This document shows positions 4,755-63,654 of a DNA stretch of 64,000 nt, in pieces. Source of the stretch: Rufibacter psychrotolerans (GTDB taxonomy: Bacteria; Bacteroidota; Bacteroidia; Cytophagales; Hymenobacteraceae); contig NZ_JAFFJV010000015.1 of assembly GCF_016924645.1 (NCBI RefSeq), positions 62,001-126,000 of the forward strand, in the 5' to 3' direction. The translations under genes were made by a program, and so were the position numbers. Position 1 is the stretch's first letter. Each line of letters begins with the position of its first letter. The notes under the pieces are model-generated. The model did not search any database and was not told the origin of the DNA. It saw nothing but the letters and a program-made list of their open reading frames with translations.

Positions 4755-6098
4755 TTGGAAAGTATACCTCCATTAGGGGAGCCCTCCAGTTGGGGCTCTC
4801 TCTTACTTTTTTCCCTTTCAACTTTTCAAGGGGTGGAATGGGTTCTCCCTTCTGTCCTGCTTGCGCTCCTCTTCGGCGGCAGCCTGGCCATCTCTGCCTC
4901 CCTTGCCGCCTGCCAGCAATACCTTAGCACATCGGCCGCCACCCGGCAACCAGCCGTTCCGTTCCTGCAGCAGCCGGAGCGGGTTCTCCTGGCCGGTGCA
5001 TTTCTTTCCTCCACGCTTCACCTCCTGCTGGGCGTGTGCGGCTACTGGCTCCTGACCTATCTGGTGGCCTCGGCGGCCCCGCACCCTTGGCTCATCACCG
5101 GCGGATGCCTGGTGGCCGGGGCGGTCCTGCTCCTGGCGGCCCGGCTGTATTTTGCCAATTGGGGCCGGCGCAAACAAGCCATTTCTGCCACTCCGGTACT
5201 CACCGCTGCCCTAAGAACGGTGTATGCCCTGGGTGCCCCGTTTGTGGCCATCATCCTTCCCCTGCAGCAATTGGTGGGCCGCACCCGGGTGGCTTTCGGG
5301 GCCCCGTCTCCCTCTGAGGAACTCACCCACTCGCTGGACCAGACGCCCGCTGAGCCCATCTCGCCGGAGGAAAAAGGCCTGCTCAAGGCCATTGTGAACT
5401 TCAGCTCCATTACCGTGCGGCAGATCATGCGCGCCCGCGTAGACGTGATTGCCTTTCACCGGCGCATGCCGTTTCCGGCCCTCCTGAAGCAGATCAACCA
5501 GTGGGGCTACTCGCGCGTGCCCGTGTACACCGAGGGTCTGGACAAGATTGACGGCATTCTGTACGTGAAAGACCTTTTGCCTTATTTGAACGCCCCCGCC
5601 GACTTTGTGTGGCAAAACCTGATCAGAACCCCTTACTTTGTACCCGAAACCAAAAAAATAGACGAATTACTGCGTGAGTTCCAGGACCGCCGGGTGCACA
5701 TGGCCATTGTGGTGAACGAGTACGGCGACACCACTGGCCTGCTCACCCTGGAAGATGTGATTGAGGAGATTGTGGGCGAGATCCATGACGAACTGGACGA
5801 CGAGGAAGACCGCTACTATACGCAACTGGACGAACACACGTTCCTGTTTGAGGGGCGCACCTCATTGCACGATTTCTGCAAGGTGGTAGACCCGCCGGCC
5901 GAGCTGCTGAAAGAAGTAAGGGGCGAGGTAGAATCGGTGGCCGGGTTAATGCTGCGCCTGTTCTCCCGCATTCCGCATACCGGCGAGGAGATTCAGCTGG
6001 GACCTTACTTCTTCCGCATTGAAGCCGCCGACAGTAAAAAAATAAAGAAAGTACGGGTGCACGAAGCGGTGCACCATCCGCATAATGAAAAAGAATAA
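4755..6098 (+). CDS. gldE: gliding motility-associated protein GldE (CBS/CorC-type membrane protein)
   Basis: 447 residues of the TlyC/CorC-like family. The first ~180 residues hold hydrophobic segments (about 14-50, 75-100, 110-135, 150-170). Next come paired CBS domains (about 210-340, with VNEYGDTTGLLTLEDVIEEIVGEI split over the second) and a CorC/HlyC transporter-associated domain. In Flavobacterium, GldE works with GldD in gliding and type IX secretion. The start is TTG at 4755, 26 nt after ssb; no ATG occurs in frame before the CBS region, so a shorter form would lose the membrane domain. The last 14 nt overlap gldD. Confidence 0.9.
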   Translation: MESIPPLGEPSSWGSLLLFSLSTFQGVEWVLPSVLLALLFGGSLAISASLAACQQYLSTSAATRQPAVPFLQQPERVLLAGAFLSSTLHLLLGVCGYWLLTYLVASAAPHPWLITGGCLVAGAVLLLAARLYFANWGRRKQAISATPVLTAALRTVYALGAPFVAIILPLQQLVGRTRVAFGAPSPSEELTHSLDQTPAEPISPEEKGLLKAIVNFSSITVRQIMRARVDVIAFHRRMPFPALLKQINQWGYSRVPVYTEGLDKIDGILYVKDLLPYLNAPADFVWQNLIRTPYFVPETKKIDELLREFQDRRVHMAIVVNEYGDTTGLLTLEDVIEEIVGEIHDELDDEEDRYYTQLDEHTFLFEGRTSLHDFCKVVDPPAELLKEVRGEVESVAGLMLRLFSRIPHTGEEIQLGPYFFRIEAADSKKIKKVRVHEAVHHPHNEKE

Positions 6099-6684
6099 CC
6101 TGCTCTCTCTTCTTACCGCGTGCTGCGGCATTCTCTTGTTGGCCGGCTGCGCAGAAGAGTACACTCCCAAACCCAAGGGCTACAACCGCATAGACTTACC
6201 CGAGGCTCGGTACACGCGCCTGCAGGAACAACACCCATACGTGTTTGAGCACTCGGTGCACGCCAGAATCCTGAAGGATTCTTCCCGCATTGCCGAGCCG
6301 CACTGGATTGACATCTACTACCCGCAGTTCAAGGCCAACATCCAGCTCACGTACAAAGACTTCAACCAGGACCCTAAGAAGTTCAACGCCCTGGTAGAGG
6401 ATGCCCGCAAGCTCACCGGCCGGCACCAGATCAAGGCCTACGCCATTGAGGAAAGCCAGATTCAGACGCCCACAGGCATTACCGCCAGCGTGTTTGAGCT
6501 GGAGGGCGAAGTGCCCAGCCAGTTCCAGTTCTATCTGACAGACAGCACCAAGCACTTTTTTAGGGGAGCCCTCTACTTCAGAACCGCCACCGCCAATGAC
6601 TCTCTGGCGCCCGTGATTGAGTACCTGAAGAAAGACGTGGTGCATCTGTTGAACACCCTACACTGGACAGAGCAGGTGAAGTAA
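6085..6684 (+). CDS. gldD: gliding motility lipoprotein GldD
   Basis: 199 residues. An N-terminal lipoprotein signal (hydrophobic stretch ending LLLAGC, lipidated Cys at residue 22) is followed by the GldD body with KPKGYNRIDLPEARY and PHWIDIYYPQFKANIQLTYK. GldD is required for gliding and surface-protein secretion in Flavobacterium and is anchored in the envelope. It begins inside the 3' end of gldE (14-nt overlap), implying translational coupling. A copy of the 36-bp palindrome starts 5 nt after the stop. Confidence 0.93.
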   Translation: MKKNNLLSLLTACCGILLLAGCAEEYTPKPKGYNRIDLPEARYTRLQEQHPYVFEHSVHARILKDSSRIAEPHWIDIYYPQFKANIQLTYKDFNQDPKKFNALVEDARKLTGRHQIKAYAIEESQIQTPTGITASVFELEGEVPSQFQFYLTDSTKHFFRGALYFRTATANDSLAPVIEYLKKDVVHLLNTLHWTEQVK

Positions 6685-6689
6685 ACTGC

Positions 6690-6725
6690 GTTTTAGGGCC
6701 GTTTTGGGGAAAACGGCCGATAAAC
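6690..6725. repeat. 36-bp dispersed palindrome, copy 1
   Basis: Starts 5 nt after the gldD stop. The inner arms GGCCGTTTT and AAAACGGCC pair perfectly around GGGG; both arms carry C/G in place of the family's usual T/A, a paired change. Confidence 0.85.
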
Positions 6726-7047
6726 AGCAAACCCTTCTTATGTGCCTGGCAGGTAACTTTTCCGCAAACTTTTACCTGCAGCTGCAATATGGCGGGACAG
6801 GTAAACCTCTAACCGCGCACCTGCGTCTCGGCTCAACCTACTCTCACCGGTATTTTCGCTTACGGCAAGTGTTGTGTTTAGAGGCTAGTTTTAGAAAAGT
6901 GGTTCCTAAACACAAATACGCCGCGGCCCTACGTGAGCCGCTACTGCTCCCTGATAGCAGAAACTCGTTGCTCCGGCGTATCCAACTTTTCCCTCCGTTA
7001 GCCCCTCTCCCATCTTTTGCGTAATTTTACAGGACGGCTTCGCGGCA

Positions 7048-7083
7048 GTTTTCGGGCAGATTCTGGAAAAACGGCCGCTAAAC
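7048..7083. repeat. 36-bp dispersed palindrome, copy 2
   Basis: Diverged copy 19 nt before the recG start. The outer GTTTT and TAAAC ends and the exact length are kept; the inner arms are weakly paired. Confidence 0.6.
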
Positions 7084-7102
7084 ACCAAGCTTCTCTCATT
7101 AC

Positions 7103-9199
7103 GTGTCATCAGGCTTTTTCCATACCAAAATAGAGTTTCTCAAGGGCGTTGGGCCACAGCGGGCTACCCTGTTGCAGACCGAGCTGGCCATTTTCACCTA
7201 CGGCGACCTCATCCAGCACTACCCGTTCCGGTACATGGACCGCACGCAGTTCCACAGCATCGCGGAGCTCACCGAAGACATGCAGTACGTGCAGATCAAA
7301 GGGCGCATTCTGGAGAAGAACCTGCTGGGCGAAGGGCGCAAACAACGGTTGTCGGCCATCATCCGGGACGCCTCCGGCGAGATGGAACTGGTGTGGTTCA
7401 AGGGCGTGAAGTACATGACCACCCAGCTGAAGGTGAACCATGAGTACATCGCCTTCGGCAAGCCCAGCCTGTTCAACGGCCGGTTCAACATGGCGCACCC
7501 AGAGCTGGAGGAAACCTCTGAGATAAAGCCCGAGCAGACGTTTCTGCAGCCGGTGTACCACACCACCGAGAAACTCAAGAACCACCGCGTAGACAGCAAG
7601 ACCATCAGCAAAATGATGATGGAACTGCTCAAACAGGCGCCCACGCACCTGCCCGAAACGCTCACGCCCGAGCTGGTGGACCGCTACCGCATGGTATCCA
7701 AGCGCGAGGCCATGCTGCAGATCCACTTTCCCAAGAACTGGGACACGCTGCAGGCGGCCCGCTTCCGGCTGAAGTTTGAGGAACTGTTCTACACCCAGCT
7801 CAAGCTGGTGCGCACCGCCACCAAACGCAAAGCCGAACTGGCCGGACAGATCTTCAGCAAAACGCCTACTTTAACCGAGTTTTACAAAAATCACCTTCCT
7901 TTTGACCTTACCAATGCCCAGAAACGGGTGGTGCGCGAGATTTACCAGGACGTAACCAGCGGCAAGCAGATGAACCGCCTCTTGCAGGGCGACGTGGGCA
8001 GCGGCAAAACCATTGTGGCATTCGTGACCATGCTCCTGGCCACCGACAACGGGGCCCAGGCCTGCCTCATGGCGCCCACCGAGATCCTGGCCGACCAGCA
8101 CTACCAGGGCCTGAAGCAGCACGCCGACAAACTGGGCATTGTGCTGGGCAAACTCACCGGCTCCACCAAGAAAGCCGACCGCCGGGTGCTGCACGAGCAA
8201 CTGCGCAGCGGCGAAATGCAGATGATTGTGGGTACGCACGCCCTGCTGGAAGATGAGGTGCAGTTCCAGAACCTGGGCCTGTGCATTGTAGACGAGCAGC
8301 ACCGCTTCGGCGTGGCCCAGCGCTCTAAACTCTGGCAGAAGAACCCCCGCGTGATTCCGCACGTGCTGGTCATGACGGCCACGCCCATTCCGCGTACCCT
8401 GGCCATGACCCTGTACGGCGACCTGGAAGTCTCTGTGATTGACGAGCTGCCCGCCGGGCGTAAGGAAATCATTACCGTGCACCGCTATGACGCCAACCGC
8501 CTGCGGGTGTTCGGGTTTATCAGGGAGCAGCTGAAACTCGGCCGGCAGGCCTACATTGTATACCCGCTCATTGAAGAGTCTGAGGGGCTGGAGTACAAAG
8601 ACCTGATGGACGGCTACGAGAGCGTGACCCGCGCCTTCCCGGAGTACCGCGTGAGCATGGTGCACGGCAAGATGAAGCCGCAGGACAAGGATTTTGAGAT
8701 GCAGCGCTTCCTGAAACACGAAACCCACATTATGGTGGCCACTACCGTGATTGAGGTGGGCGTGAACGTGCCCAACGCCAGTGTGATGGTGATTGAGAAT
8801 GCCGAGCGGTTTGGGTTGGCGCAGCTGCACCAGTTGCGGGGACGCGTGGGCCGGGGCGCTGACCAAAGCTACTGTATCCTGATGACGGGCTACAAGCTCA
8901 GCAAAGAGGGCAAGACGCGCATTGAGACCATGGTGCGCACCAACAACGGCTTCGAGATTGCCGATATTGACCTGAAACTTCGCGGGCCGGGAGATTTGAT
9001 GGGCACCCAGCAAAGCGGCGTGCTGGATCTTCTGATTGCTGATCTGGCAAAGGATGCCAAAATTTTGAAGGAAAGCCGGGCGGCGGCCCTGGAGATCGTA
9101 GAAAAAGACCCGGACTTAAGCCTTCCGGAGCATGCCAACCTGTTGCGGCACATCCGGTCGCTGAGCCATAACACCGTGAACTGGAGCCGGATCAGCTAG
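7103..9199 (+). CDS. recG: ATP-dependent DNA helicase RecG
   Basis: 698 residues, the normal length. RecG reverses stalled replication forks and branch-migrates recombination intermediates. The N-terminal wedge/OB domain (about 1-250) starts with the HhH-like FLKGVGPQRATLL. The helicase core shows Walker A QGDVGSGKTIVA, the DEQH box DEQHRFGVAQR, TATPIPRTLAMT, and the C-terminal LRGRVGRGADQSYC. The start is GTG at 7103; the next in-frame ATG would cut off the wedge domain. It stands alone, with palindrome copies upstream and no close downstream partner. Confidence 0.97.
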   Translation: MSSGFFHTKIEFLKGVGPQRATLLQTELAIFTYGDLIQHYPFRYMDRTQFHSIAELTEDMQYVQIKGRILEKNLLGEGRKQRLSAIIRDASGEMELVWFKGVKYMTTQLKVNHEYIAFGKPSLFNGRFNMAHPELEETSEIKPEQTFLQPVYHTTEKLKNHRVDSKTISKMMMELLKQAPTHLPETLTPELVDRYRMVSKREAMLQIHFPKNWDTLQAARFRLKFEELFYTQLKLVRTATKRKAELAGQIFSKTPTLTEFYKNHLPFDLTNAQKRVVREIYQDVTSGKQMNRLLQGDVGSGKTIVAFVTMLLATDNGAQACLMAPTEILADQHYQGLKQHADKLGIVLGKLTGSTKKADRRVLHEQLRSGEMQMIVGTHALLEDEVQFQNLGLCIVDEQHRFGVAQRSKLWQKNPRVIPHVLVMTATPIPRTLAMTLYGDLEVSVIDELPAGRKEIITVHRYDANRLRVFGFIREQLKLGRQAYIVYPLIEESEGLEYKDLMDGYESVTRAFPEYRVSMVHGKMKPQDKDFEMQRFLKHETHIMVATTVIEVGVNVPNASVMVIENAERFGLAQLHQLRGRVGRGADQSYCILMTGYKLSKEGKTRIETMVRTNNGFEIADIDLKLRGPGDLMGTQQSGVLDLLIADLAKDAKILKESRAAALEIVEKDPDLSLPEHANLLRHIRSLSHNTVNWSRIS

Positions 9200-54886: not shown

Positions 54887-56503
54887 TTACTCCCGGTTTC
54901 TTACCCGTACAAAAGCCGGAACCTCCGCCGCGGTCTGGAAGAGTTCTGCGTTGGTGATGGGCCCGGCCTGCAGGTTCACGCCATTGGTTTCATCCAGCAC
55001 CACTGTTTTCTTACGCCACCCCTCCAGGCTTGATCTGTCGGTGACTTCATCCAGGCCCGCGCCGCCGTGCACGTAGACATAGGAGCCTTTCTGGGCCGTT
55101 CCGCGCACGTCAAAAATATCCTTGCCGCCCAACCCATAAAGCCTGATCTTTTCGGTTTCTACGGCAAAAAACGTGCGGCTATAGACTTTGGCGCCGTTTA
55201 CGTTGCCTGGGCCCAGGCGGTAGACTTCCACCACGGTTCTGCCCTGCGGAAGCCGCTGCACCACAAAGCGTTCTGGTTCATCTGAGCCCACCACGGCCAC
55301 TTCCCGGGCCAGGATCTTGTAGTACTCCTCCGCCACCTGCACCAGCAACCGTCTGCGGCTCCTCAGTTTCTGGAAAGTCTCCTGCCCCACCAGGGCATAC
55401 ACCGACGGGGGCAGGCGCCGGGCCGCCACGTGCAGCACAGAATCAGAAAGGGCGGTCTGCATCTCGCGCGCCAACCTCCTGAAATCAACCAGGGTAACCT
55501 CAGACAGGGCCCGGGCATCCAGGAAGGCCGCGTTGATGGTGAGGCCGTACACGTCTTTGAACCGGGCGTGGAAAGACTCAAACTTGCGGGCGGCAAACTT
55601 GCGGGTGGCAATCCAGGGAATCACGCCGTCGTCGTAGAGGCAAAGCGCCTGGTCCCGGTCTTTAGGCACGGGTTTGTACCACACCTCCTTGCCCTGGGCA
55701 TACACGGCCCAGTCCCACTGGCCCTCGTGGCGGTCCCAGTCGCTGAGCAGCATGTCCAGGAGGCGGGCTTTAGCGAAGGCCCACTGGTCAATGCGGTGCC
55801 GGCTGGAGCCATAGCGCCGCCGCAGCATCTCCTCGGTACTGACCAGGTCAGAGGCCGGCCCGAACTCCTTTGTGAGCGAGGCTTTGCTGGTAAACTTCTC
55901 CTCCATGAGGAACAACTTGTTCCCGAAGAGGTTGGCGTACTGCCTGAAACTCTGGTCTGAAGGGGGCACATACACCAGTTGCGGGTGGGAGTGAAAGATA
56001 CCGGCGGCATGGGCCAGCGGCTCTACCACCAGCGCCGCATACGGGTTGGTAGCCGACACCTGGTCGCGCACGAAGGCGCCCACAAAGGTTTTCCGCCAGA
56101 ACGGGGGCAGCACGCTAATAGGGTCTTTGTCTATGGAGCGCAGCGCAAACCGGCGGCCCAGGGAGTCTACCAAGGTAAGGCTGGTGGTTTGCATGCCGCC
56201 GCCCAGTTTCTCAATGGCCAGCCCGCCTTTGGCCTCCTGCATGTGAAAGACCTTGGCTTTTACCGGTACCGCCCACACCGGGCGGTAATGCTCGCCCAGG
56301 AAAAAGGCGGCCGCCTTGCTGACTTGGTAATGGGCGCCGGCACTCACTGTCACACAATCCCGCACCACAGGTTGTGCAATCCGGTTTCCTCCCAAGGCAG
56401 GCAGGGGCCCGCGTTCCCCTGCCTGTTCATCCGTAAAAAAGAAGCTCACCAGTCCGTACAGGAACAGCCCCCCCAGTAGTGCCAGTAGAATTCTTCTCTT
56501 CAT
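54887..56503 (-). CDS. membrane-anchored protein with atypical-kinase-like module
   Basis: 538 residues. An N-terminal hydrophobic segment (about 5-24) anchors or exports it. The rest is homologous to residues about 365-800 of the 1186-residue protein at 60094. Shared features resemble a Fam20/HipA/CotH-type kinase core: a Gly-rich strand GGGMQTTSLTL (101-111) leading to ALRSIDK (120-126), a putative catalytic loop LLDMLLSDWDRHEGQW (248-263; D257) and a metal-binding-like DRDQAL (282-287). No beta barrel follows. Named families with these motifs phosphorylate proteins or sugars; activity here is only suggested. Confidence 0.6.
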   Translation of the reverse strand: MKRRILLALLGGLFLYGLVSFFFTDEQAGERGPLPALGGNRIAQPVVRDCVTVSAGAHYQVSKAAAFFLGEHYRPVWAVPVKAKVFHMQEAKGGLAIEKLGGGMQTTSLTLVDSLGRRFALRSIDKDPISVLPPFWRKTFVGAFVRDQVSATNPYAALVVEPLAHAAGIFHSHPQLVYVPPSDQSFRQYANLFGNKLFLMEEKFTSKASLTKEFGPASDLVSTEEMLRRRYGSSRHRIDQWAFAKARLLDMLLSDWDRHEGQWDWAVYAQGKEVWYKPVPKDRDQALCLYDDGVIPWIATRKFAARKFESFHARFKDVYGLTINAAFLDARALSEVTLVDFRRLAREMQTALSDSVLHVAARRLPPSVYALVGQETFQKLRSRRRLLVQVAEEYYKILAREVAVVGSDEPERFVVQRLPQGRTVVEVYRLGPGNVNGAKVYSRTFFAVETEKIRLYGLGGKDIFDVRGTAQKGSYVYVHGGAGLDEVTDRSSLEGWRKKTVVLDETNGVNLQAGPITNAELFQTAAEVPAFVRVRNRE

Positions 56504-56697
56504 GTAAGCGCAGTAGACTAGAGTACAGCTTTACCCCAAACCTTTGCCAAAGGTTAGCCGGTTTAAGGGCAACGTTCTTCCTCCCATTACGCAAAAACAC
56601 CAGAAAAACGCTATCTTTAGGCTTGTGAGCAGGCGTTAACCTTACCAGTTTGCCCTGCGTTTAATCAATTCTACCCAACCTTAACCTTACTTTACCT

Positions 56698-56970
56698 ATG
56701 GCAAACAGTGCTACCTACACCGGAATCACTCCAGATCTGTATAACACGCTAAGAGGCAAATTGGGCGCAGCGGGCATTGAACTGGCCGGCAACAGCGGCC
56801 GCGTGTCTAAGCAAGGCGTTACCGCCGATTATGCGTATGAAGAAGCCACGCAAACCCTGCAGATCAACAACGTACAGGTGAGCTTTCCGGCCAGTATGAT
56901 GTTCAGCCCAGACAAGATCATCCAGAAGATAACGGAGGCGGTACGCGGCGCCGGCGGACAGGTGGCCTAA
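56698..56970 (+). CDS. small conserved protein, unknown function
   Basis: 90 residues, no signal peptide or membrane segment. YTGITPDLYNTLRGKLGAAGIELAG followed by a strand-rich centre (ADYAYEEATQTLQINNVQVSFPASM, in adjoining parts) and a C-terminal helix; looks like a compact alpha/beta domain. I do not recognise it. Monocistronic, ending in its own terminator at 57014. Confidence 0.65.
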   Translation: MANSATYTGITPDLYNTLRGKLGAAGIELAGNSGRVSKQGVTADYAYEEATQTLQINNVQVSFPASMMFSPDKIIQKITEAVRGAGGQVA

Positions 56971-57013
56971 CTTGTTCTAAAAAAGCGCGACCTTAGCGGC
57001 TGCGTTTGCGTAT

Positions 57014-57055
57014 AAAAATCCCGGTTCGGCCCCACAGGCCAGACCGGGATTTTTT
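57014..57055 (+). terminator. intrinsic terminator
   Basis: AAAAATCCCGGT and ACCGGGATTTTT with an inner GGCC/GGCC stem and a T-run, about 45 nt past the stop of the preceding small gene. Confidence 0.9.
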
Positions 57056-57097
57056 GTACACCTTGACTACCTCTAGAGACACCAAGAAACTAACACT

Positions 57098-57361
57098 ATG
57101 GAACAATCACAGAATACCTCCACCCAGCTTGTACAGCCCAAAGATTTCGCCAGAACCGTAGAGTCTATTGTGCACGTGTACCAAGGCAACCATGATGTGC
57201 TACCAGATCTGCTGGCTGATGCCGGCCGGATGTTGCTCAAGGTGCGTCAGAAAATGACGCCCGTGCAGCTGGTGCTGTCGGTGGCCGCGGTGGCCATTGG
57301 CGCCATTGTCCTGGTTTCTTACAGCGGCAACCAGTTCAGCGACGCGGAAGAAGTGAAGTAG
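57098..57361 (+). CDS. small single-pass membrane protein, unknown function
   Basis: 87 residues. A soluble helical N-terminal half (residues 1-50) precedes one transmembrane helix (about 56-76, VQLVLSVAAVAIGAIVLVSY) and a short polar tail. No family recognised. It stands alone between two strong terminators. Confidence 0.65.
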   Translation: MEQSQNTSTQLVQPKDFARTVESIVHVYQGNHDVLPDLLADAGRMLLKVRQKMTPVQLVLSVAAVAIGAIVLVSYSGNQFSDAEEVK

Positions 57362-57379
57362 CACCTTTTGCCCCACGCA

Positions 57380-57420
57380 GAAAAGCCCCGCTTATACCCA
57401 TAGGCGGGGCTTTTTGTTTC
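57380..57420 (+). terminator. intrinsic terminator
   Basis: AAAAGCCCCGC and GCGGGGCTTTT stem with TTTTTG tail, 20 nt past the stop of the small membrane protein. Confidence 0.9.
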
Positions 57421-57494
57421 AAGACAGTCGCTTAGTTCTTTTTATTATAAGAATGTTTATATTATATTTATAGTAAACAAGAACAGAGTGACAC

Positions 57495-58469
57495 ATGAAA
57501 AAAGCAAGCAAGTACTTATTCATGGGCATGGCTGGACTACTGGTGGTAGTGTTATCTGCCCTGGCATACGTGAAGGTGGCCCTGCCCGATGTAGGCGAAG
57601 CCCCCGAGATCAAGATCACCGGCACTGAAAGCCAGGTTGCCCGCGGCAGGTACCTGGCCCACAACGTAATGGTGTGCGTTGACTGTCACTCTGAACGGGA
57701 TTGGACCAAGTACTCTGGTCCGCCCAAACCGGGCACCTGGGGCAAAGGCGGCGAAGCCTTCTCCAAGGACATGGGCTTTCCCGGCACCTTCTTCGCCCGC
57801 AACATTACCCCGGCCGGCGTGGGCGACTGGACCGACGGGGAGCTGTTCAGGGCCATCACCGCTGGGGTAGACAAGAACGGGCAGGCCCTGTTCCCGGTCA
57901 TGCCCCACCACCTGTACGGCCAACTGGCCCAGGAAGACATTGAGGCCGTGATTGCGTACATCCGCACGCTGCCCGCCATTGAGAACGACATCCCAGACTC
58001 GCAGCCGGAGTTCCCCATGAACTTCATCATGAACACCCTGCCCAGGAAAGCCAGCCTCAAACCCATGCCCGCCAAGTCAGAGACGCTGCTGTACGGCAAG
58101 TACCTGGCCACGGCGGCAGCCTGCGGAGAGTGCCATACGCCTAAAGAAAAGGGCCAGAACATACCAGGAATGGAATTTGCCGGCGGCATGGAGTTCAAGC
58201 TCCCGGACGGAAGCACCCTCCGGTCGGCCAACATTACGCCCGACAAGAAAACTGGCCTGGGCAACTGGACCAAGGAGGCCTTTATAAACCGGTTTAAGCA
58301 GTACAATGATTCTTCGTTCCACACCCAAACGGTAGCCAAGGGTGCGTTTAACACGGTCATGCCCTGGGTAATGTACGCCGGCATGGAACAGCAAGACCTG
58401 GAAGCCATTTACGCCTATCTGCAAGACATTCCGGCAGTACCCCACCAGGTGGTTCGCTACAGCAAATAA
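57495..58469 (+). CDS. membrane-anchored diheme cytochrome c
   Basis: 324 residues. An N-terminal hydrophobic segment (about 8-28) serves as signal anchor, leaving two cytochrome c domains in the periplasm. Heme motifs are C61-V-D-C-H65 and C210-G-E-C-H214; distal Met ligands are likely in FPVMPHHLYG and NTVMPWVMYAGM. This resembles the cytochrome subunits that accept electrons from PQQ or flavin dehydrogenases, but no such dehydrogenase is adjacent. It probably passes electrons to a terminal oxidase. Confidence 0.92.
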   Translation: MKKASKYLFMGMAGLLVVVLSALAYVKVALPDVGEAPEIKITGTESQVARGRYLAHNVMVCVDCHSERDWTKYSGPPKPGTWGKGGEAFSKDMGFPGTFFARNITPAGVGDWTDGELFRAITAGVDKNGQALFPVMPHHLYGQLAQEDIEAVIAYIRTLPAIENDIPDSQPEFPMNFIMNTLPRKASLKPMPAKSETLLYGKYLATAAACGECHTPKEKGQNIPGMEFAGGMEFKLPDGSTLRSANITPDKKTGLGNWTKEAFINRFKQYNDSSFHTQTVAKGAFNTVMPWVMYAGMEQQDLEAIYAYLQDIPAVPHQVVRYSK

Positions 58470-58506
58470 ACACCAGAGGTATTAGCGTTAATCTTTTTAC
58501 CGGAGC

Positions 58507-58542
58507 CGTTTGGGCCTGTTTTCTCAGAAACAGCCCTAAAAC
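58507..58542. repeat. 36-bp dispersed palindrome, copy 23
   Basis: Extended in this copy: the flanks GGAGC and GCTCC also pair, giving a 47-bp palindrome 58502-58548. Core GGGCCTGTTTTC and GAAACAGCCCTAAAAC. Confidence 0.88.
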
Positions 58543-58665
58543 GGCTCCTTCTTTTTTGGGCTACGCCAACGGTTTGTAGCCTGCAAAGGTGCGCCGGGCG
58601 CAGAAAGTGGAAGGCTTGGGCACTCACGGCGCGCTGTTTATGTTTTCTTTGCACACGCCCTTGGT

Positions 58666-59148
58666 ATGCCCCGCAAAAAGAAGAAGAAGTACGCCGCTGC
58701 AGATGCCGTTCCGCTCACCGCCCAGGAGCGGGTGAGCCGTTACATGCGCGGCAACAAGTCCAGGGACACGCAGCCGGAGTTGCTACTGAGGCGCGCCCTG
58801 TGGCAGAATGGCTTGCGCGGCTACCGCATTCATTGGAAGCACGTGCCGGGCAAGCCCGATGTCTGCTATCCCGGCCGCAAATTGGCCATCTTCCTGCATG
58901 GGTGTTTCTGGCACCGGTGTCCGCACTGCCTGCCCGCCATGCCCAAAACCAACCTCCCCTTCTGGACCGAAAAATTCACCCGCAATCAGCAGCGGGACCA
59001 GCAGCACCGTCAAAAACTTAAAGCGGCAGGCTGGCAGGTACTGGTCATCTGGGCCTGCCAACTGCACCAGGACCTGGCGGGCTGCCTGCTTACCATCAAG
59101 GCCTTGCACCAAGGCGTGCCGGAGAGCTATTGGGTAGAGGCCGCGTAA
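58666..59148 (+). CDS. vsr: very short patch repair endonuclease
   Basis: 160 residues. Vsr nicks T:G mismatches that arise from deamination of 5-methylcytosine. Family motifs: VSRYMRGNKSRDTQPELLLRR, the catalytic aspartate in GKPDVCYPGRKLAIF, and the zinc-site motif GCFWHRCPHC with a later WQVLVIWACQ. Lysine-rich start (MPRKKKKKY) is acceptable. Vsr is normally beside its cytosine methyltransferase; none is within this window, so it is an orphan here. Confidence 0.94.
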   Translation: MPRKKKKKYAAADAVPLTAQERVSRYMRGNKSRDTQPELLLRRALWQNGLRGYRIHWKHVPGKPDVCYPGRKLAIFLHGCFWHRCPHCLPAMPKTNLPFWTEKFTRNQQRDQQHRQKLKAAGWQVLVIWACQLHQDLAGCLLTIKALHQGVPESYWVEAA

Positions 59149-59174
59149 CTTTTGCGGCTTAGCACACACTCTCT

Positions 59175-59210
59175 GTTTTGGGGCCGTTTCGCCAAAAACA
59201 CGCCCTAAAC
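59175..59210. repeat. 36-bp dispersed palindrome, copy 24
   Basis: 26 nt after vsr. GTTTTGGGGC and GCCCTAAAC ends; inner CGTTTCG and CCAAAAAC partly paired. Confidence 0.8.
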
Positions 59211-59286
59211 ACCAATTGTGCCCTCCGCTTGCTTTCTATTGGGAAGCGCACTTCAGCAGTCTAAAAAACAACAGCGAGGCCTGGGT

Positions 59287-59838
59287 TTACTCCCAACGGA
59301 CTGGCACGCCCAACTTACGGGCGGTATACCCCGCGGCCGAGGCATGCAGTTTGGGCAAGACCTGGTTCAAATCGTCGGCAAACTCCACGTGCAGGTCTTC
59401 GTGCAGCTTTTGCAGTTTCTGCAGCGCCTCCTGCGTCTGTTTGGCCAGGAACACCCCCAGCGGTTCGGTGGCGCCGGTTAGGTCACGCACCAGGTCCTGC
59501 TGGTATAACAGTACTTCCTTTAGCAGCAACAGCAGCAGGCTGACTCCCCCGTAGGCATCGGCGGTTACTTTGGCGTGGTTGTTCAGGAGCGGGCACAGCG
59601 CCCGCAAAGCGATCAGCAGTTCAGAGGCGTTGTAGTAAAAGCCCTGCGCCACGGCCTGAATGTGGGCATGCAGCGCTTCTCTTCGGGTTTCCAGTCCATC
59701 GGGGCCTTCCAGCAACTCAAAGGCCAGCTGCTCCTGCAGCAACTGGTTGGGCGTGAGCAGCTGCAGCAACAGTTTGTCTTTGCGGGCGGCGGGCAGAGCC
59801 AGAATGGCCTTGCGGAGTTCTTTGTCTAACGCGGGCAT
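59287..59838 (-). CDS. helical protein of unknown function
   Basis: 183 residues from the ATG at 59838 (MPALDKELRKAI), preferred over an upstream in-frame start that would add a Lys-rich tail of 11 residues. It is Leu-rich and all-helical by pattern (DKLLLQLLTPNQLLQEQLAF, SLLLLLLKEVLLYQQDLV), soluble, without known motifs. Convergent with vsr. Family not recognised. Confidence 0.65.
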   Translation of the reverse strand: MPALDKELRKAILALPAARKDKLLLQLLTPNQLLQEQLAFELLEGPDGLETRREALHAHIQAVAQGFYYNASELLIALRALCPLLNNHAKVTADAYGGVSLLLLLLKEVLLYQQDLVRDLTGATEPLGVFLAKQTQEALQKLQKLHEDLHVEFADDLNQVLPKLHASAAGYTARKLGVPVRWE

Positions 59839-60032
59839 AATGCGAGTCTTCTTCTTAGCGTGAAACAACAAAACGGCCCGGTTTATTCCTTTTCGGGAAA
59901 GATTGCCCCAGGCAGCAGGCTTGCTGGCAGCGCCGGCATGAAAGCAGGGGCTGCGCCAACCTTAGAGGGCCAAAACTGCGTAAACAGCGGCAAACAGCCG
60001 GTGCATCCCGGTTTTTCAAAGTACGGTTCCTT

Positions 60033-60068
60033 GTTTTGGCCCTGTTTTCCAGAAAGCAGGCGCAAAAC
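60033..60068. repeat. 36-bp dispersed palindrome, copy 25
   Basis: Near consensus on the left, GTTTTGGCCCTGTTTTCC; right GAAAGCAGGCGCAAAAC. It lies 25 nt before the start of the 1186-residue protein. Confidence 0.85.
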
Positions 60069-60093
60069 CAGAGAGCTGCCAGCTCCTTAAAAA

Positions 60094-63000
60094 ATGAACA
60101 TGAGAGACTATTTACCCTACAGGGTAATCCTTCTTCAACTTTGCGCCTGGGTGTTTGCGCCCCTGGTTGCCTGGGCCCAATTGCCATCCCTGCCATCTGG
60201 TTCTCCCTCGTACACGGTGCTGCTGGCCGGCCGGTGGTCGCCGGGTCAAACTGCGGCGGCTCCCCTGCCGCTGTTGCAAGCCCAGTTGCAGCAATCCGGC
60301 GAGAAAAGCGCCCTGGTGCTCATCGGGAATCCTTTTCAGCCGGCTACCCTGCCGGCTGTATCGGCGGCCAACCGCAAAGAACTGGAGGCGCAGCTGCAGC
60401 GGCAACTCAACTACCTGCAAGGCTACCAAGGCAAGATCATCTTAATGCCCGGCGAGCATGACGCCAAGGGCCGCGTGGTACAGGAAGTGAAGAACCAGGA
60501 ACGGTTTATTGCGCAGTACCTTAATAACGAGAAGCTGGTCTTGCCCGAGAACCACTGCCCCGGCCCCTCTGAGGTGGCCCTCACCGATGACGTGCACCTG
60601 CTCCTGCTAGACACCCAGTGGCTGCTGCCCAACCGCCGCATAGACGAGGAAGAGGAACAGCGCGGCTGCCCCACTACCGGCGGCACCGCCACCCTGGCCG
60701 CCCTGGACGACGTGCTGCGCAGCAACGAGGAGAAGAACCTGCTGGTGGTCATGAGCATCTCGCCCCAGATGAAGAACCTGGAGTACCGCCTCATGCACCG
60801 CCAGCTGGCCCAGATGTACACCCAGCACAAGGGCCTGGTACACGCTGAGGGCAACTCGGCCGCCCTGGCGCACCAGACCAAGGACAGCGTCCACTTTGTT
60901 TCGGCGGGCTTGGGCGCTGACAGCCGGAAAATTTCCAAAGACGCCACGGCGCACTTCTCGCAGGCCAGCGCCGGGTTTGCCAAGCTGCTGTATTTCCCCA
61001 ACGGCGAAACCTGGCTGGAGATCTGGACCGCCCCAGACGCCCAAAGCGCCCAGGGCCAGGTGGCGCACCGGGCGCTGCTCTCGCGCAAGCTCACCCAGCA
61101 ACAGCTAGAGGCGCAGATCAAACGCATGAACCTGAACTTCGCGGGGCAAAAGGCCAGCCTGCCGGCCAGCCTGGTGTACAAGGGCAGCGGCTTCAGAGAG
61201 TGGCTGCTGGGCGAAAACTACCGCCCCGAGTGGCAAACCCCCGTTACCCTGCCGGTCTTTGACATTGGTTCCCAGAAAGGCGGCCTGAAGGTGGTGCAGC
61301 GCGGCGGCGGCTTTCAGACCGTGTCCCTGCGCCTGGAAGACAGCACCGGCCGCCAGTACGTGCTGCGCTCCGTGGAGAAATACCCCGACGCGGCCCTGCC
61401 CCGCATCTTGCGCCAGACCATTGCCGCCGACGTGGTGAAAGACCAGATCTCGGCCTCGCACCCGTATGGCGCGCTGGTGGTGCCAAGGCTGGCCAGCGCC
61501 GTGGGCGTGTACCACACCAACCCGCAGTACTTTGCCATTCCGGAGGATCCGCGGTTTGGGAAGTACCTCAAGGGCTTTGCCAACACCATTGGCCTGTTTG
61601 AGGAACGTCCCGACGAAGACATGTCTGACCTGGCCAGCTTCGGGAATTCTGAGAACGTGGTGGGCACCGACAAAGTCCTGGAAAACACCCTGGAAGACCA
61701 GAACGACGAGGTGGACCAGCGCAGCCTGCTCCGAGCCCGCCTCCTGGACTTCTTCATTGCCGACTGGGACCGCCACGACGACCAGTGGCGCTGGGCCGAG
61801 TTCAAGAAAGAAGGCAAGGGCAAGCTCTACAAACCCGTACCGCGCGACCGTGACCAGGCTTTCTTCGTGAACCAAGGGGTGATCCCCAACATTGCCAGCC
61901 GCCGCTGGATCCTGCCCAAGGTGCAGGGGTTTGACGAGAGCCTGCGCGACATCAAGGGCTTCAACTTCAACAACCGCTACTTTGACCGCTACTTTCTCAC
62001 CAAACTGGAACGCGCTGACTGGGTGGCCATGGCCGATTCTGTGCGCGCCGCCCTCACCGACGAGGCTATTGACGAGGCCGTCCGTGCTTTGCCGCCAGAG
62101 GTGTACAGGATCTCCGGTGAGCGCCTGGCCAACACCCTCAAAGCCCGCCGGGCCTACATCCGCCGCGACGCCGAGGACTACTATGAGTTCCTGGCCCAGA
62201 AAGTAGACGTGGTGGGCACTGATCTGGAGGAACAGTTTGAGGTAAGACGCGAGCCCGGCGGCTCTACCCTGGTCACCATCTACAAGAAAGGGAGCACCGC
62301 CCCCGAGGACGAGCTGTACCGTCGCCGCTTCCAGCCCGATGAGACCCGCGAGATCAGGCTGTACGGCCTGGGCGGCGCCGATGCGTTCAACGTGCAGGGC
62401 CAGGCCTCAGACGGAATAAGGGTACGCATCATTGGAGGCGACGGCCAGGACGCTATCACAGACAGCTCCAGCGTGGTGGGCCTGCGCCGCCTGACCTACG
62501 TGTACGATGCCCCTAACGGCACCCAACTGCAGTTGGGCCCTGAGGCCCGCAACCTTACCCGTAAACGGCCCACGCCGGTGTATGACCGCCGCAGCTTTAG
62601 GTACAACTACCTCGGCCCGCTGGCCTCCATTAATTATAACCGCGACGATGGCTTTATCCTGGGCGGCGGGGTGCTGCTCAAAACCCAGGGCTTCCAGAAA
62701 GAGCCGTATGGCATGATGCAGCGCCTGGAAGCCAGCTATGCGTTTCAGACCAAGTCGTTCATGGTAGACTACGGGGCCCATTTCCCGCAGCTGAGGCTAG
62801 GCCTTGACCTGAAGGTGAACGTGAACTGGAAAAGCCCGGGCTTCTCGCAGAACTTCTTTGGGTTGGGCAACGAGACCGCCTACAACCCAGACATAGACAT
62901 TGAGTATTACCGGTTCCGGTCTGCCCAGTTCTACGCCAACGTCTTGGCCGGCCGCAAGCTGAGCCAGTACGAGACCATCTTCGTGGGTCCGGCTTACCAG

Positions 63001-63654
63001 ACCGTGAACGTGGAGCGTACGCCGGGCCGGTTCCTGCCCGAGCAGCTGACCACCTCAGACCGGCTGGCCGGCTACTATGAACCGCATGCCTACGCCGGGG
63101 CCCGCATAGAATACGTGCTAGACTCCCGTGACCTGGCGGCCCTGCCGGCCAAGGGGGTGTACTGGCAAGTAGCCGCCGACCTGCTCAAGGGCACTAACCG
63201 CCACTCGGCAGACGTGGCGCGGGTGCACTCGCAGTTCGCCCTCTACCAGACCCTGCGCATTCCGCTGAAGCTGACCCTGGCTACCCGCTTTGGCGGCGGC
63301 CACACCTTTGGCGATGACTTTGAGTTCTTCCAGGCGCAAACCCTGGACGGCCCCACCATGCTGCGGGGCTACCGCCGCAACCGCTTCAGCGGGCAAAGCA
63401 CCCTCTACAACAACACGGAGGCCCGCCTGCGCCTGTTCAGCTTCACTACCTACCTGTTCCCTGCCTCCATCGGGGTCTTCGGGTTCCATGACATTGGCCG
63501 CGTGTGGATGGAAGGCGAAAACTCCAAAAAATGGCACCGAAGCCACGGCGGCGGCATCTGGCTCTCGCCCCTGAACCAGGTGGTCCTCTCAGTGGGCTTT
63601 GCCGCCTCACAGGAAGAAAACCAGTTCCTGCTCCGGGGCGGTTTCCAGTTCTAA
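60094..63654 (+). CDS. degenerate phosphoesterase + kinase-like module + Omp85 barrel fusion
   Basis: 1186 residues. Signal peptide to about residue 28 (VAWAQ); ATG 60100 is an alternative start. Residues about 38-310 have a calcineurin-like phosphoesterase layout, but key sites are altered: GNPFQP where GDNxY is usual, PGEHD for PGNHD, and no GHxH motif. Residues about 365-800 match the 54887 protein: GGGFQTVSLRL (404-414), YVLRSVEK (422-429), LLDFFIADWDRHDDQW (550-565, D559), DRDQAF (585-590). Residues about 830-1186 form an Omp85/BamA-type barrel with the lid motif LRGYRRNRFSG and terminal Phe. It sits in the outer membrane; role unknown. Confidence 0.8.
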   Translation: MNMRDYLPYRVILLQLCAWVFAPLVAWAQLPSLPSGSPSYTVLLAGRWSPGQTAAAPLPLLQAQLQQSGEKSALVLIGNPFQPATLPAVSAANRKELEAQLQRQLNYLQGYQGKIILMPGEHDAKGRVVQEVKNQERFIAQYLNNEKLVLPENHCPGPSEVALTDDVHLLLLDTQWLLPNRRIDEEEEQRGCPTTGGTATLAALDDVLRSNEEKNLLVVMSISPQMKNLEYRLMHRQLAQMYTQHKGLVHAEGNSAALAHQTKDSVHFVSAGLGADSRKISKDATAHFSQASAGFAKLLYFPNGETWLEIWTAPDAQSAQGQVAHRALLSRKLTQQQLEAQIKRMNLNFAGQKASLPASLVYKGSGFREWLLGENYRPEWQTPVTLPVFDIGSQKGGLKVVQRGGGFQTVSLRLEDSTGRQYVLRSVEKYPDAALPRILRQTIAADVVKDQISASHPYGALVVPRLASAVGVYHTNPQYFAIPEDPRFGKYLKGFANTIGLFEERPDEDMSDLASFGNSENVVGTDKVLENTLEDQNDEVDQRSLLRARLLDFFIADWDRHDDQWRWAEFKKEGKGKLYKPVPRDRDQAFFVNQGVIPNIASRRWILPKVQGFDESLRDIKGFNFNNRYFDRYFLTKLERADWVAMADSVRAALTDEAIDEAVRALPPEVYRISGERLANTLKARRAYIRRDAEDYYEFLAQKVDVVGTDLEEQFEVRREPGGSTLVTIYKKGSTAPEDELYRRRFQPDETREIRLYGLGGADAFNVQGQASDGIRVRIIGGDGQDAITDSSSVVGLRRLTYVYDAPNGTQLQLGPEARNLTRKRPTPVYDRRSFRYNYLGPLASINYNRDDGFILGGGVLLKTQGFQKEPYGMMQRLEASYAFQTKSFMVDYGAHFPQLRLGLDLKVNVNWKSPGFSQNFFGLGNETAYNPDIDIEYYRFRSAQFYANVLAGRKLSQYETIFVGPAYQTVNVERTPGRFLPEQLTTSDRLAGYYEPHAYAGARIEYVLDSRDLAALPAKGVYWQVAADLLKGTNRHSADVARVHSQFALYQTLRIPLKLTLATRFGGGHTFGDDFEFFQAQTLDGPTMLRGYRRNRFSGQSTLYNNTEARLRLFSFTTYLFPASIGVFGFHDIGRVWMEGENSKKWHRSHGGGIWLSPLNQVVLSVGFAASQEENQFLLRGGFQF

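Follow-up and report, generated by a model that had tools for sequence, protein, structure and literature searches.

A module of predicted kinase-like fold in exported proteins of Rufibacter psychrotolerans and other Bacteroidota

To our knowledge, extracytoplasmic phosphorylation is firmly documented in animals and almost unknown in Gram-negative bacteria. The described systems that invite comparison with the proteins analysed here are CtkA (PDB 3akj/3akk/3akl), a HipA-like Ser/Thr kinase of Helicobacter, the HipA family (PF07804), PI4KII, CotH and Fam20 and, among outer-membrane proteins, the Omp85 'Metallo' subfamily (Front Microbiol 2014, PMC4104836). Here we describe a module that occurs twice in a window of 64,000 nucleotides from Rufibacter psychrotolerans (contig NZ_JAFFJV010000015.1), once in a 538-aa protein (P0002) and once in a 1186-aa protein (P0001). 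With a probability of roughly 0.6, we consider the module to be a new kinase-like family near the CtkA/HipA/PI4KII fold and a probable envelope phosphotransferase in Bacteroidota.

The initial annotation of the window had reported two ORFs with a common string of motifs in the same order, and both were present as described. The features of P0002 are as follows.

54887-56503, minus strand: P0002, stand-alone kinase-fold protein of 538 aa (ORF, module search of the genome, AF2 model)
56432-56503, minus strand: N-terminal hydrophobic membrane anchor or signal segment, residues 1-24 (hydropathy; cleavage motif not seen)
55304-56359, minus strand: predicted kinase-fold core, residues 49-400 (AF2 and Foldseek; the same core stands alone in ~430-aa homologues)
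56171-56203, minus strand: Gly-rich strand GGGMQTTSLTL, residues 101-111 (Gly101 and Gly102 unchanged throughout 97 homologues)
56126-56143, minus strand: beta3, L-R122-S-I-D-K126 (Arg and Lys invariant, 97/97)
55895-55909, minus strand: hinge strand LMEEK with the invariant Glu201 (motif mapping and 97-module alignment)
55715-55756, minus strand: putative catalytic-loop motif DMLLSDWDRHEGQW with Asp257, D250 to W263 (aligned with DRHNGNW of CtkA and NxDxH of HipA)
55646-55666, minus strand: putative metal-loop motif PKDRDQA, P280-A286, with Asp282 and Asp284 (motif mapping and 97-module alignment)
54938-55303, minus strand: C-terminal beta domain, residues 401-522, fold unidentified (AF2 secondary structure)

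The N-terminus of P0002 looks like an uncleaved membrane anchor and that of P0001 (..LVAWAQ) like a cleavable signal peptide, both judged by hydropathy only. P0001 is composed as follows.

60094-63654, plus strand: P0001, 1186-aa fusion of signal peptide, degenerate phosphoesterase, kinase-fold module, beta domain and Omp85 barrel (ORF, Pfam, AF2, Foldseek, HMM)
60208-61086, plus strand: degenerate calcineurin-like phosphoesterase without the metal motifs, residues 39-331 (HMM of intact relatives, i-E 2e-42)
61159-62199, plus strand: predicted kinase-fold core, residues 356-702 (alignments A1/A2, AF2)
61303-61335, plus strand: Gly-rich strand GGGFQTVSLRL, residues 404-414 (motif mapping)
61363-61380, plus strand: L-R425-S-V-E-K429 (motif mapping)
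61747-61788, plus strand: DFFIADWDRHDDQW with Asp559, D552-x4-D557-W-D559-R-H-x-x-Q-W565 (motif mapping)
61840-61860, plus strand: PRDRDQA, residues 583-589, with Asp585 and Asp587 (motif mapping)
62200-62559, plus strand: beta domain after the kinase core and before the barrel, residues 703-822 (AF2 secondary structure)
62605-63651, plus strand: Omp85/BamA-type beta barrel, residues 838-1186 (Pfam PF01103, Foldseek)

The common module cannot be ascribed to chance, because the P0001 and P0002 copies share 41% identity over ~460 aa and can be aligned with three other copies from the same genome. The five modules of the host genome (G000, 5.18 Mb) belong to the window pair, a head-to-head pair on contig 10 (L002 and L005, 532 and 527 aa) and L003, a fusion of 1255 aa encoded on contig 21, and their ~460-residue alignment contains 85 invariant positions. 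Genes for 2-oxoglutarate dehydrogenase and a DsbA-like protein adjoin the P0001/P0002 pair in the window, and an ORF at 58666-59148 resembles, by eye only, a very-short-patch-repair (Vsr) endonuclease.

We modelled the shared module by AlphaFold2 (AF2) with 97 homologues. The computed model reached a mean pLDDT of 91.8 and a pTM of 0.91, with pLDDT above 90 over most residues, and its elements follow the order of a kinase. The Gly-rich beta strands come first, then beta3 carrying the invariant Arg, helices and the hinge strand with the invariant Glu; a further helix precedes the DWDRH loop, after which come a beta hairpin, the DRD loop and a helical lobe. Kinases or kinase-fold proteins appeared throughout the best 50 PDB matches listed by Foldseek, with CtkA as the best match (E 1.9e-6, probability 1.00), and with PI4KII-alpha (1.4e-4), HipA (1.9e-4), COQ8A (8.5e-4), CotH (1.3e-3) and Fam20 (4kqb; 3.9e-3) also found; WaaP was another of the fold matches. 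Among predicted viral structures, a PI3/4-kinase domain protein (2e-7) and many Ser/Thr kinases were matched. Judging from the model and its top matches, the module has the two-lobed kinase fold of the protein-kinase-like (PKL) superfamily, and we hold this predicted resemblance to be nearly certain. TM-scores to PDB kinases were modest (up to 0.53 on target length) and count against the kinase reading, albeit such values are expected because the family is distant and has extra elements. A kinase-like module had been proposed in the initial annotation, and the AF2 fold check, defined beforehand as its possible refutation, was passed. The proposed likeness to Fam20, HipA and CotH stood as far as the kinase fold is concerned, with HipA among the nearest families, but CotH and Fam20 were not the nearest: the predicted fold appears to lie in the CtkA/HipA/PI4KII branch.

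In a profile search of the PDB, CtkA ranked first of 177,635 sequences and was aligned at its DRHxxNW loop, at an E value of 0.46, which is not significant; a PDB sequence search with P0002 alone returned no match. We also ran hhalign against Bacteroidota alignments of HipA and CotH, with column-shuffle controls. HipA gave a probability of 2% and a score of 24.7 (at most 21.3 in 60 column shuffles) with the catalytic loop aligned, and the CotH alignment gave nothing. Since the sequence profiles are not significant and homology rests on structure, we regard the module as a family of its own in the PKL superfamily. Recruitment to HipA or CotH by sequence only was rejected for the same lack of significance. 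Membership of the established families was also rejected: P0001 and P0002 lack matches to HipA_C (PF07804), CotH (PF08757, for which hhalign was empty as well) and the PI3/PI4 kinases (PF00454), none of which is among the families listed for the 97 members, and for Fam20 there was no Fam20C Pfam match and the fold match was weak. No Pfam, NCBIfam or PADLOC model was found to cover the module in P0001 or P0002, nor any Pfam or NCBIfam model in the 97 members, and PADLOC matched neither protein with regard to a defence role.

Conservation of the putative active site was computed from an alignment of 97 modules drawn from numerous genera (A2; A2 position + 39 gives the P0002 position). In P0002 numbering, the invariant residues include G101, G102, R122, K126, E201, D255, W256, R258, W263, W265, P280, D282, R283 and D284, so that the Arg and Lys of R-S-x-x-K, the hinge Glu, D-x4-D-W, the Arg of DRH and D-R-D are all retained; D147 is present in 96/97 modules. 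The Asp of DRH, Asp257, is Asp in 73/97, Ser in 21/97 and Gly in 3/97. From the alignments with CtkA and HipA we infer that D257, and not D255, may be the catalytic Asp. In both P0001 and P0002, a basic beta3 residue, the catalytic Asp and the metal-binding Asp follow one another as in the PKL superfamily, a statement about sequence order only. The Lys strand named in the initial annotation was confirmed as an invariant motif, but the interior of beta3 holds Arg rather than Lys: in the AF2 model R122 lies inside the strand and K126 just past it, and therefore either could be the counterpart of the VAIK Lys. The position of the metal-binding Asn of kinases is occupied by Gln, which counts against the kinase reading. 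All of the 38 aligned fusions keep Asp559, DWDRHxxQW, the beta3 Arg and Lys and DRD, and their kinase lobes are the best-conserved part (mean majority-residue fraction 0.67 and 0.60, versus 0.50 in the phosphoesterase and barrel).

Hydropathy analysis detected hydrophobic N-termini in 60/67 long fusions, 48/70 stand-alone proteins and 0/54 cytoplasmic controls, and the module proteins are very likely exported. P0001 and P0002 both carry such N-termini, in agreement with the export of both proteins claimed initially. The further claim that one of them has its own outer-membrane barrel is supported by the C-terminus of P0001, which belongs to the Omp85 superfamily (PF01103, E 2.2e-11; Foldseek match to BamA, E 1.4e-11). 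No Pfam match for POTRA was obtained before this barrel at the threshold used, and the beta domain of unidentified fold occupies the place. Export does not require the barrel, because most stand-alone copies lack it, and lipid- or membrane-anchored stand-alone copies argue for a module that faces the periplasm, with its side of the outer membrane undetermined. Missing from the initial annotation was the degenerate phosphoesterase of P0001. The domain has lost all five metal-ligand motifs (GDxx, GDNx, GNHD, HHP and GHxH) and bears a deletion, whereas the adjoining kinase motifs are intact; the phosphoesterase appears to be dead. The five motifs are all kept in the paralogue L003 of the same genome. 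PF00149 was matched in 27/38 fusions and Omp85 in 31/38.

A pattern scan of the genome collection confirmed at least 571 relatives, the nearest of which, among the matches listed, are five loci (L006-L010) with 76-81% identity. A profile search, in a survey confined to Bacteroidota, found the module in 114/296 genomes, and in 60/60 genomes of the host family Hymenobacteraceae, with 2-6 copies each. The proteins comprise the kinase core with just a membrane anchor (~430 aa), the core and beta domain with a lipoprotein signal or anchor (~530-580 aa; anchored and lipoprotein copies span ~430-580 aa overall), the core, beta domain and barrel (~870 aa), or the phosphoesterase, core, beta domain and barrel (~1200-1350 aa). 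The shortest copies (L168-L172, around 5836-7122 or 5920-7212) suggest that the beta domain is dispensable for the core. In the barrel proteins L174 (2686-4905), L175 (1951-4047), L177 (3416-6013) and L178 (2452-5112), the module has lost its motifs or is itself reduced to remnants, possibly a natural series of module decay. We found no publication that joins phosphoesterase, Omp85 and kinase; preprints, most subscription papers and the KINtaro family table were outside the scope of this search. Within that bound on novelty, the module is a widespread family without a name or a Pfam/NCBIfam entry.

All 22 Ser-type modules of the tree fall into a single monophyletic clade (support 0.945), in which the other invariant residues of the site are retained. 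In Hymenobacter, Adhaeribacter and Rufibacter, Ser-type genes adjoin an Asp-type gene, mostly divergently, and in Pontibacter the Ser-type gene follows in tandem; further neighbouring pairs were found in at least 13 genomes. As the paired loci were fetched via Asp-type matches, a partner for every Asp-type gene is not implied: several Asp-type genes have no Ser-type partner in range, and none lies beside P0002. The divergent genes L002 (1456-3051, minus strand) and L005 (1390-2973, plus strand) on contig 10 carry DWDRH and DWSRR, respectively, the latter with GGS in place of GGG. They form an apparent kinase-pseudokinase pair conserved in Hymenobacteraceae.

Gene neighbourhoods offer partial hints. 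At 23/38 fusion loci, spread across the phylum, a protein with an HD domain and C-terminal PycTM segments is encoded near the fusion, mostly adjacent to it, in tandem or divergently; the C-terminus of one such HD hydrolase (L186, 1799-2986, plus strand) is matched by PADLOC to Pycsar/CBASS-type 2TM effectors. Polyphosphate kinase and a SixA-like phosphatase occur close to fusions in the host genome and at Pontibacter, Hymenobacter and Labilibaculum/Ancylomarina/Marinifilum loci. Beside the intact host fusion L003, the stretch L185:7414-11564 encodes the SixA-like phosphatase, PPK1 and a DUF6268-like protein. In another family (f23), 14 genomes have PPK1 among the matches listed, and in 13 of them PPK1 and the fusion are 7-16 kb apart; the proximity is only suggestive, because these genomes are related. 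The P0001/P0002 pair itself lies outside neighbourhoods of the PPK1 or HD-PycTM type. A functional link to the APP1 phosphatidate phosphatase was rejected as lineage synteny, since this neighbour is conserved in Hymenobacteraceae and was otherwise seen at one flavobacterial locus.

Could the predicted fold itself be wrong and the module unrelated to kinases? The non-significant profiles and modest TM-scores leave room for such an artefact, but it is hard to reconcile with the high pLDDT, the dominance of kinases in the top matches from two structure libraries and the correct motif order, and we consider it very improbable. A kinase fold without enzyme activity, acting as a binding or gating domain that replaces POTRA in barrel fusions, as some pseudokinases do, is another alternative. 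The periplasm is scarce in ATP, which counts against any kinase there, the catalytic Asp is missing from a stable clade and from some module-barrel proteins, and the barrel protein L175 does without most of the module. Nevertheless, a mere scaffold has no need of the DWDRHxxQW, beta3 Arg/Lys and DRD residues that are invariant in 38/38 fusions, and we regard this alternative as unlikely.

If the module is an enzyme, its substrate may be an envelope glycan, lipid or small molecule rather than a protein, as for Fam20B, WaaP and PI4K. This sub-case of the phosphotransferase reading is a serious, if minority, option: PI4KII and PI3/4-kinase-like proteins rank high among the fold matches, WaaP was matched as well, and Fam20B is a xylose kinase (PMC7948968), but our neighbour survey found no conserved linkage to LPS or lipid synthesis genes, and the APP1 neighbour is nearly limited to one lineage. 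Whether the substrate is protein or glycan/lipid remains undecided. Chemistry other than transfer of the gamma-phosphate, such as AMPylation or glutamylation, is performed by other kinase folds (PMC10870513, the KINtaro paper), yet the residue signature of a flipped nucleotide was not identified here. Polyphosphate might also replace ATP as the donor, given that polyphosphate kinase and SixA are encoded close to intact fusions in two lineages and the host genome. This neighbourhood is not universal, however, and PPK1 is considered to be cytoplasmic; we see little likelihood in either departure from ordinary phosphotransfer.

We therefore return to the envelope phosphotransferase as the preferred reading. 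The kinase shape and the frequent fusion to a phosphatase-like domain and a barrel mean that the module may phosphorylate something outside the cytoplasm. There are no biochemical data, and donor, substrate and activity are inferred and unproven; on balance, we lean towards an active phosphotransferase. A membrane or lipid anchor, or else an Omp85 barrel, would hold the module at the envelope. A nucleotide or other phosphate donor would be bound between the lobes by the Gly-rich strand, the beta3 Arg/Lys, the DWDRHxxQW loop and the DRD metal loop, and the phosphate would then be moved to an envelope substrate, be it protein, glycan or lipid. Antagonism within the long fusions is likewise inferred: the fused phosphoesterase may undo the modification made by the kinase, apparently no longer in the window copy. 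Elsewhere in the genome, the Asp-less sister encoded beside an intact copy may serve as a regulatory partner, an inference by analogy with Fam20A and Fam20C (PMC7948968). It is attractive to speculate that Bacteroidota possess a phosphorylation system in the periplasm or at the surface, with kinase and phosphatase fused on a barrel chain, a dead sister as regulator and possibly a donor other than ATP, e.g., polyphosphate; the proposal as a whole is doubtful at present. Independently of that proposal, the family makes testable enzymes of many proteins now called 'hypothetical', Omp85 or metallophosphoesterase, and with its conserved, apparently dead partner it offers a bacterial counterpart of Fam20A and Fam20C.

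What sets this Bacteroidota family apart is the combination, outside Pfam and NCBIfam, of a confident kinase fold, near-perfect active-site conservation, export signals and a phosphoesterase and barrel on the same chain. CtkA is its best fold match, and the DRHxxNW of CtkA aligns with the DRHxxQW of the module; CtkA, at 325 aa, lacks the envelope anchor, phosphoesterase, beta domain and barrel seen among the module proteins, and the sequence similarity is not significant. HipA resembles the module in fold (E 1.9e-4), and hhalign places its catalytic loop correctly, but the module proteins are exported, lack a HipA_C match and were not seen to adjoin a HipB-like partner. PI4KII is similarly close in fold (E 1.4e-4), whereas the module is exported, bacterial and without a PF00454 match. 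The Omp85 'Metallo' subfamily shares the PF00149 domain and the Omp85 barrel, and L003 is an intact member in the host; the accessible part of its description mentions no intervening module and terms the N-terminal domain a metalloprotease (PMC4104836). CotH and Fam20 share the kinase fold with the module, albeit with weaker fold matches and no Pfam match, and Fam20 resembles it further in acting outside the cytosol and in pairing an active kinase with a pseudokinase (PMC7948968).
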